Source: Thermoplasmata archaeon (lineage in GTDB: Archaea > Thermoplasmatota > E2 > JACPAO01 > JAHFTW01). Taken from it: a stretch of 64,000 bases of DNA. Numbering within the stretch: the stretch's first letter is position 1; every line of letters begins with the position of its first letter. The stretch spans positions 169,548 through 233,547 of the forward strand of contig JAHFTW010000001.1 in the NCBI GenBank assembly GCA_023269235.1. Direction: 5' to 3'. The translations under genes and the position numbers were made by a program. This document shows, piece after piece, positions 27,722 to 47,304 of the stretch. The notes beneath the pieces were generated by a model. The model saw only the letters and a program-made list of their open reading frames with translations, searched no databases and was not told where the DNA came from.

Positions 27722-27740
27722 AGCGGGCCCGGGGGGATTT
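27722..27740 (-). repeat. Duplicate of the tRNA-Arg 3' tail
   Basis: agcgggcccggggggattt exactly repeats 27836-27854, 114 bp away. Confidence 0.9.
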
Positions 27741-27837
27741 CAGCCTCCGTCCGTCTTTGACGGCCGGAGGCATTCCTCGGCGCTTCGCGCCTCGGCAAAC
27801 CCCCCGCGCCGTTCTCACTCACTTCGTATCGTTCGAG

Positions 27838-27911
27838 CGGGCCCGGGGGGATTTGAACCCCCGTCGCAGGCTCCGCAAGCCTAAAGGATATCCAAACTAC
27901 CCCACGGGCCC
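27838..27911 (-). tRNA. tRNA-Arg (anticodon GCG)
   Basis: Reverse complement GGGCCCGTGGGGTAGTTTGGATATCCTTTAGGCTTGCGGAGCCTGCGACGGGGGTTCAAATCCCCCCGGGCCCG; anticodon loop TTGCGGA; acceptor and T stems pair. Confidence 0.92.
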
Positions 27912-38365: not shown

Positions 38366-38438
38366 GGGCTCGTGGTCTAGCGGTTATGACGTCACCTTGA
38401 CATGGTGAATATCACCAGTTCAAATCTGGTCGAGCCCA
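38366..38438 (+). tRNA. tRNA-Val (anticodon GAC)
   Basis: GGGCTCGTGGTCTAGCGGTTATGACGTCACCTTGACATGGTGAATATCACCAGTTCAAATCTGGTCGAGCCCA; anticodon loop TTGACAT; stems pair. Confidence 0.93.
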
Positions 38439-38530
38439 CTCTCACTCGCTTCGCTCGTTCGAGAGGAGCTCGACCCGATTGTGGTGCTCGCTTCGCTTGC
38501 TCGCGACGGAGCCTTGCTAGGCTCCGTCGC
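38421..38530 (+). repeat. tRNA-tail module copy 1 (starts inside the tRNA-Val T-arm, ends in a 28-nt hairpin)
   Basis: 110-bp unit; hairpin GCGACGGAGCCTTGCTAGGCTCCGTCGC at 38503-38530. Confidence 0.95.
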
Positions 38531-38640
38531 CAAATCTGGTCAAGCCCACTCTCACTCGCTTCGCTCGTTCGAGAGGAGCTCGACCCGATTGTGGTGCTCG
38601 CTTCGCTTGCTCGCGTCAGGCCGCGGCTGCGCCCTGCCGC
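38531..38640 (+). repeat. tRNA-tail module copy 2
   Basis: One mismatch to copy 1 across the first 84 nt (38544 a vs 38434 g), then a different 28-nt hairpin (38613-38640). Confidence 0.95.
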
Positions 38641-38660
38641 CAAATCTGGTGGAGCCCACT
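38641..38660 (+). repeat. Third tRNA-Val tail copy (partial module)
   Basis: caaatctggtggagcccact at exactly +110 from copy 2. Confidence 0.9.
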
Positions 38661-46305: not shown

Positions 46306-47304
46306 ATGTCAGCCAAGCCTGAGCCCAAATCCACGCCTGAGAAGACCGTGAAGGCCGCCGCGGCCGCGCCCGGAGTCTCGCCCGCGACCATCTCGCCCGG
46401 CGCCGACGCCAAGGACTCGGTCTACGACTCCGTCGCCAAGGAGCTCGCCACCCTCGCCACGAGCGACGCGCAGGTCAAGAAGATCGGCAGCAGCCCGCTC
46501 GGCGAGACCCGCGGCCAGGACGTCCTGCGCCTGCACGCGACCCTCAAGGGCATCGACCTCCTCAACGGCAAGGTCAACCGCGTCTTCGCGAGCCTGCAGA
46601 CCGCGCTCGCCGACCTGGACAGCCACCTCCACACGGACGCCACCTCGCTCACCGGCCAGGGCGACCGCCAGTCCTCGTCCATCCTGAAGGCCGTCGCCGC
46701 CGCCCAGGCGGACCTCAACGACGCCGTCAGCACCGCGCAGTCCACCCTGACCGCCGCCGTGAGCAAGGCCCAGTCGAGCTTGTCCGACCAGCTCACCAAG
46801 AGCACGGCCAGCCTCACCAAGACCGTGGACAGCGCCCAGTCGGCCCTGTCCGAGCAGCTCTCGAAGAGCACCTCCAGCATCACCAAGACGGTCAAGGACG
46901 CCCAGGCCGCGCTCTCCGAGCAGGTCGCTGAGGCCCAGACCGCCCTCTCCGGCGAGGTCGCCGAGAGCCTATCCGACCTGTCCGGCCGTAGCGACAACCT
47001 GCTCAACACGATGAAGGACTCCTTCTCGAAGGTCCTCAAGGCGACCGCCGGCAGCGAGGAGAACCTCAAGTCCCAGACGAGCTCGTTCAGCTCCGCCGTC
47101 GAGGAGCTGCTCTCCAACGTGCAGAACACCCTGCAGAAGCAGATCTTCGAGTTCCGCGAGGAGACCACCCGCCAGGTGGACAAGCGCATGAACCAGGCCG
47201 ACGTCGCCTTCGCGGCCGTCCGCGCCGACCAGGAGGTCATCAAGGCCCTCCTGACCGACATCATCAAGGACCGCATGGGCCGCGCCGAGCCGAAGTACCG
47301 CTAG
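46306..47304 (+). CDS. Long coiled-coil / apolipoprotein- or LEA-like repeat protein
   Basis: Low-complexity amphipathic repeats: TVDSAQSALSEQLSKSTSSITKTVKDAQAALSEQVAEAQTALSGEV. Confidence 0.75.
   Translation: MSAKPEPKSTPEKTVKAAAAAPGVSPATISPGADAKDSVYDSVAKELATLATSDAQVKKIGSSPLGETRGQDVLRLHATLKGIDLLNGKVNRVFASLQTALADLDSHLHTDATSLTGQGDRQSSSILKAVAAAQADLNDAVSTAQSTLTAAVSKAQSSLSDQLTKSTASLTKTVDSAQSALSEQLSKSTSSITKTVKDAQAALSEQVAEAQTALSGEVAESLSDLSGRSDNLLNTMKDSFSKVLKATAGSEENLKSQTSSFSSAVEELLSNVQNTLQKQIFEFREETTRQVDKRMNQADVAFAAVRADQEVIKALLTDIIKDRMGRAEPKYR

Follow-up and report, generated by a model that had tools for sequence, protein, structure and literature searches.

The window, that is, the whole 64-kb stretch of DNA analysed here, harbours two tRNA genes that are directly followed by copies of their own 3′ ends. 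Two tandem units lie downstream of tRNA-Val(GAC) and a single unit lies downstream of tRNA-Arg(GCG), and direct repeats of such spacing at the ends of RNA genes were restricted to these two loci in the window. Each unit ends in a copy of the last 18 nt of the host tRNA, called here the tail, and carries an imperfect reverse complement of it, called here the antitail. The features are as follows.

38366..38438, + strand: tRNA-Val(GAC), host gene (ARAGORN span 38366-38439; discriminator A at 38438)
38421..38438, + strand: tail of tRNA-Val, comprising the 3′ part of the T-loop, the 3′ strand of the T-stem, the 3′ strand of the acceptor and the discriminator
38439..38548, + strand: Val unit 1, 110 nt, with spacer/hairpin A, antitail, hairpins and tail copy
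38440..38463, + strand: hairpin A of Val unit 1, spacer TCTCACTCGCTTCGCTCGTTCGAG
38465..38482, + strand: antitail of Val unit 1, an imperfect reverse complement of the tail that pairs at 13/18 positions with the tRNA tail and at 12/18 with the copy
38503..38530, + strand: terminal hairpin of Val unit 1, 12/12 pairs
38531..38548, + strand: terminal tail copy of Val unit 1, 17/18 identical to tRNA-Val
38549..38658, + strand: Val unit 2, 110 nt, with 1 difference from unit 1 over 84 nt
38575..38592, + strand: antitail of Val unit 2
38613..38640, + strand: terminal hairpin of Val unit 2, 10/12 pairs, with four two-sided changes relative to unit 1
38641..38658, + strand: terminal tail copy of Val unit 2, 17/18 identical to tRNA-Val
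about 27838..27911, − strand: tRNA-Arg(GCG), the second host gene in the window
27724..27837, − strand: single 114-nt unit after tRNA-Arg(GCG)
27795..27812, − strand: antitail of the tRNA-Arg(GCG) unit
27724..27741, − strand: terminal tail copy of the tRNA-Arg(GCG) unit, 17/18 identical to its own tRNA

The tail of tRNA-Val, CAAATCTGGTCGAGCCCACT, was seen again at 38531 and 38641 with a spacing of exactly 110 bp, as the original prediction from the sequence had stated, and the tRNA-Val gene named there is genuine with the small correction that the tRNA proper stops at the discriminator A (38438). The two modules described as nearly identical differ at 1 of their first 84 positions and at 12 of their last 26, and the inverted tail fragment attributed to them is 92% complementary to the tRNA-Val tail over 13 nt. 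Their 28-nt hairpins form 12/12 and 10/12 pairs with four two-sided changes that retain pairing, also as predicted, but as 0.9% of shuffles of the second hairpin's own letters reach at least 10/12 pairs, covariation at this one locus is only moderate evidence. The like architecture claimed for tRNA-Arg follows the same plan with different sequence, including the copy of its own tail.

Elsewhere in the window, tandem arrays with periods of 66-69 bp (and 33 bp), multiples of three, occupy positions 867-1841 and 46757-46965 and apparently lie in coding sequence for repetitive proteins. The window also encodes a Hel308 helicase whose nearest named relatives are from Thermoplasmata MAGs at no more than 48% identity.

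Survey of tRNA genes in related genomes

The survey covered the surroundings of the tRNA genes in G000, the genome to which the window belongs (45 tRNAs), and in three further members of its order (G001-G003); the genomes are incomplete MAGs (74-93%), so absences in them are not absolute. The 18-nt tail of each tRNA was matched against the 330 nt downstream of it, and the tails of the remaining tRNAs in that genome served as control. In G000, the own tail was found downstream at 15/18 or better for 8 of the 45 tRNAs against 0.6% of foreign tails, while G002 had it at 13/18 or better for roughly 20 of 42 tRNAs, about half, against 4% of foreign tails, with matches often limited to 12-13 stem positions. 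The observed sum was reached by none of 20,000 permutations in G000 and G002, for tail or antitail. The own-tail signal was weaker in G001 (p about 0.002) and no excess was detected in G003 (p 0.23), which has the same GC content (0.65), therefore composition is not the cause. Chance and composition as sources of the tail copies were thus ruled out by these permutations together with G003, and the check suggested originally, that the tails should match the adjacent tRNA, gave a positive answer, the units copying the tail of their host.

The hosts in G000 were Val-GAC, Pro-GGG, Leu-TAA, Phe-GAA, Arg-CCG, Arg-GCG, Pro-CGG and Leu-CAG, with a tail copy matching at 17-18/18 in seven of these eight and at 15/18 in Pro-CGG. 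Units were present at 28 tRNA genes across three genomes with one to three units per tRNA, which rules out an assembly artefact confined to a single array. Exact copy numbers are uncertain: the tRNA-Glu(CTC) array of G002 is broken by a run of N within the downstream 330 nt, and its true copy number may exceed that of the assembly. Besides, direct repeats were in excess near tRNAs in the sampled DNA, and no tail repeat was seen after 5S rRNA in G000-G002. The units are a real, genome-wide feature limited to tRNA 3′ ends.

Some neighbourhoods depart from this arrangement. In G001, tRNA-Lys(TTT) and tRNA-Gly(CCC) are directly followed by an antitail with the tail copy mostly gone, which would leave this antitail no partner but the tRNA itself. 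The pattern of the group was not found in two AT-rich relatives at class level, one a one-contig genome with 37 tRNAs and one tail copy lacking an antitail, the other with 16 tRNAs. The tRNA-Leu(CAA) of a distant AT-rich relative of the class (G028) has a 17/18 copy of its own tail about 54 bp downstream, without an antitail and followed by a T-run.

Anatomy and folding of the units

The 41 units at the 28 tRNA genes share the order tail, (hairpin), antitail, hairpins and tail, and are mostly 60-130 nt long. They fold strongly, with median z-scores against dinucleotide shuffles of -3.5 in G000 and -2.8 in G002, whereas DNA at a distance of 650 nt gave 0.3 and -0.2 (p 6e-7 and 2e-9, respectively). 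In the minimum-energy folds of most units, the hairpins are enclosed by a helix of antitail and 3′ tail, and the pairing is imperfect in all units. This strong folding across units, along with hairpins that continue to pair, bears out the earlier claim that structure is kept despite changes in sequence. Tail copies equal the host at 95% over the 12 T-stem and acceptor positions, a figure biased upward because the units were recognised by that identity, and at 65% over the T-loop positions (two doubtful hosts left out). With the same two hosts left out, antitail pairing extends over about 76% of the 12 helical positions and reaches 12/12 in no unit; the three terminal acceptor positions are paired less well than the others. 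Preferential covariation between antitail and tail copy was not found, as at differing sites the antitail fits only the copy 34 times and only the tRNA tail 38 times; given this and the lack of any fully paired unit, pairing of antitail and copy is not proven as the target of selection.

The three units of tRNA-Arg(CCG) are 0-1/105 bases apart, which indicates recent tandem duplication at some loci. Hairpins of the G000 and G002 units use GCGAAGC/GCTTCGC loops throughout, and a GAGCGCTGCTGCGCTC-like hairpin is common to several loci.

Possible roles and origins

The reading that we favour, with confidence somewhat above even, is that these are archaeal trailer units resembling the tRNA-linked repeats (TLRs) of E. 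coli, which are transcribed together with the tRNA, cleaved at every tail copy and spread by tandem duplication. The unit would be transcribed within the pre-tRNA and would fold into hairpins and an imperfect helix of antitail and tail copy mimicking the acceptor/T-stem end of the host. RNase Z, the archaeal tRNA 3′-end machinery, which was found in all four genomes, in G000 at C3:365335-366225, may then cut behind each tail and so release the tRNA along with a small RNA from every unit, and tandem duplication between the repeated tails would increase the number of units. At equilibrium, capture of the tRNA's own tail is close in energy, especially in G000, and folding often favours a tail swap, with the copy completing the tRNA; the imperfection of the antitail may serve to avoid such capture. 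For the archaeon, we infer transcription and cutting, and likewise any job of the released RNAs beyond trailer removal. By analogy with E. coli, a processed structured trailer appears to be the best of the three hypotheses put forward originally.

The units may otherwise be a functionless mutational by-product of template switching or slippage at hairpin-rich tRNA ends followed by tandem duplication, though this reading is unlikely. A template switch that copied backwards and then re-entered further upstream would be expected to yield the succession of tail, antitail and tail, the copy number of units varies with some of them nearly identical, and some antitails lack a good tail copy (Lys and Gly of G001). 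However, the units are confined to tRNA 3′ ends, and in the sampled DNA far from tRNAs the direct repeats with an inverted copy between them have spacings mostly divisible by three, as in coding DNA. Their absence from G003 at the same GC content, the pairing of hairpins kept as the sequence changes and the recurrence of the same plan in a bacterium (E. coli) also speak against a mere by-product.

It is also conceivable, but improbable, that the first tail, the antitail and the second tail form two mutually exclusive folds and that the units thereby serve tRNA maturation as a switch or as a check on folding, the antitail taking the tRNA tail in the second fold while the tail copy completes the acceptor and T stems. 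Partition functions for the 28 transcripts of tRNA plus unit are consistent with such bistability, as the mean pairing of the first tail is 0.41 with the tRNA 5′ strands and 0.37 with the unit, and that of the second tail 0.47 and 0.30, respectively. The tail copies also stay close to identity with the tRNA in the stems alone, which is what pairing with its 5′ strands requires. Yet only 7 of the 23 stem deviations in the tail copies retain pairing with the tRNA 5′ strand, the T-loop part required for a working tRNA is often lost from the copies, and the tRNA is transcribed and probably folded before the antitail exists; moreover, the energy model disregards tertiary contacts and base modification. 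The wider proposal, of a general archaeal pre-tRNA device independent of the enterobacterial TLRs, in which antitail and tail copy would be set against the own tail so that maturation is switched or checked, and in which both the invariance of the tail and the imperfection of the antitail would be selected, we likewise regard as doubtful.

That the units are transcription terminators or hairpins protecting the 3′ end, built from tails by happenstance, is quite improbable. The transcription unit does finish in strong hairpins, and 7 bp separate the Val array from a convergent open reading frame. A terminator, however, needs neither a host-specific tail copy nor tandem repetition, and TTTT within 40 nt of the last tail was found for 2/7 (G000) and 6/19 (G002) of the arrays against 8/38 and 4/23 of tRNAs without units; with no clear enrichment of T-runs after the units, the termination device first suggested is left unsupported.

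Site-specific integration at tRNA 3′ ends, with the units as remnants of it or as small non-autonomous elements that regenerate the tail, is very improbable: integration at archaeal tRNA 3′ ends does leave partial tRNA copies (PMC9897764) and own-tail copies occur 715-765 bp away in G003, but the units measure 60-130 bp against 9-23 kb in the known cases (PMC9897764), and each host tRNA has its own specific antitail, so a transposed element could not carry it. Proteins of the RVT_1 and Y1_Tnp families were absent from all four genomes, integrase matches numbered one in the genome with most units and nine in the one without units (G003), no recombinase lay within or tracked with the units, and no viral contig held the two unit sequences tested. 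The repeated insertion proposed originally was therefore not supported. The nine tyrosine-recombinase matches of G003 (C83, C93, C137, C41, C52) include several that lie a few kb or less from tRNA genes; together with its distant own-tail copies they probably represent ordinary integration at tRNA ends.

Comparison with known systems

Archaeal integrated elements resemble the units in having a second copy of the tRNA 3′ part near the gene, and differ in the 9-23 kb of element DNA between the copies and in having neither an antitail nor short tandem units (PMC9897764). In Methanopyrus kandleri, about half of the tRNA genes are followed, at a distance of 10 bp, by a palindrome for which a role in 3′ maturation has been proposed (PMC5217627). 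This palindrome is likewise an archaeal motif just after tRNA genes, but consists of one short conserved palindrome with no copy of the tRNA tail.

The closest likeness is to the TLRs of E. coli, of which there are 22 at ten loci (Egan & Landy 1978, Rudd 1999; PMC8144298) and whose last 18-19 bp are identical to the 3′ end of the tRNA or 5S gene that precedes them (PMC8144298). They have had no known function since 1978, and for the 5S-linked repeat the authors of PMC8144298 proposed the repeated tail as a processing signal. In K-12, the tyrV units hold GGGGAAGGAT, which pairs with the tail-copy ATCCTTCCCC at a probability of 0.91-1.00 and whose match was reached in 0/2,000 shuffles, and the repeats of the argQ region and proK show the like pairing between an antitail and the tail copy. 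The consensus of the Rfam family RtT (RF00391), which includes the tyrTV and proK repeats, is an antitail/tail helix around hairpins with the three terminal acceptor positions unpaired here too. The annotated end of the 171-nt rttR RNA (record positions 1287066-1287236) is the last base of the tail's CCA, the end that would be expected from tRNA-like 3′ maturation.

The archaeal units share with the TLRs a location directly after the tRNA gene (at all 28 genes), the occurrence in tandem, a copy of the upstream gene's 3′ end at the unit end (17-18/18 at most G000 hosts), several different host tRNAs and an antitail paired with the tail copy; as in RtT RNA, this pairing encloses hairpins. The TLR members described so far are, to our knowledge, all enterobacterial, whereas the host here is an uncultured Thermoplasmatota archaeon. 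Moreover, the archaeal units are mostly 60-130 nt as against about 130-180 for TLRs, do not encode CCA, have no shared core sequence, are found at as many as about half of the tRNA genes and, unlike TLRs, were not seen after 5S rRNA. No match to RF00391 above the 45-bit gathering threshold was obtained in the four genomes or the Val region; the units are thus unrelated to RtT in sequence, membership of the RtT family is not claimed and the relation is one of architecture. The best score in G000, 17.4 bits over the tRNA-Arg unit, was taken as chance (E 0.86, out of register).

The element was thus not undescribed, as first thought, since the E. coli TLRs and RtT have the same plan. No TLR-like cases in archaea were found in the literature searched, subscription papers being mostly outside its coverage, and as far as we could find within it the arrangement had so far been reported only in the E. 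coli family. The likeness between the two is probably convergent. As archaeal and E. coli units share their anatomy, with a host-specific antitail in both domains, the tail copy and the antitail stand out as the essential parts, and old questions on TLRs become testable, namely whether the copied tail is a 3′-processing signal and what role the released RNAs have. The archaeal units are a new archaeal variant of a known, unexplained E. coli kind.
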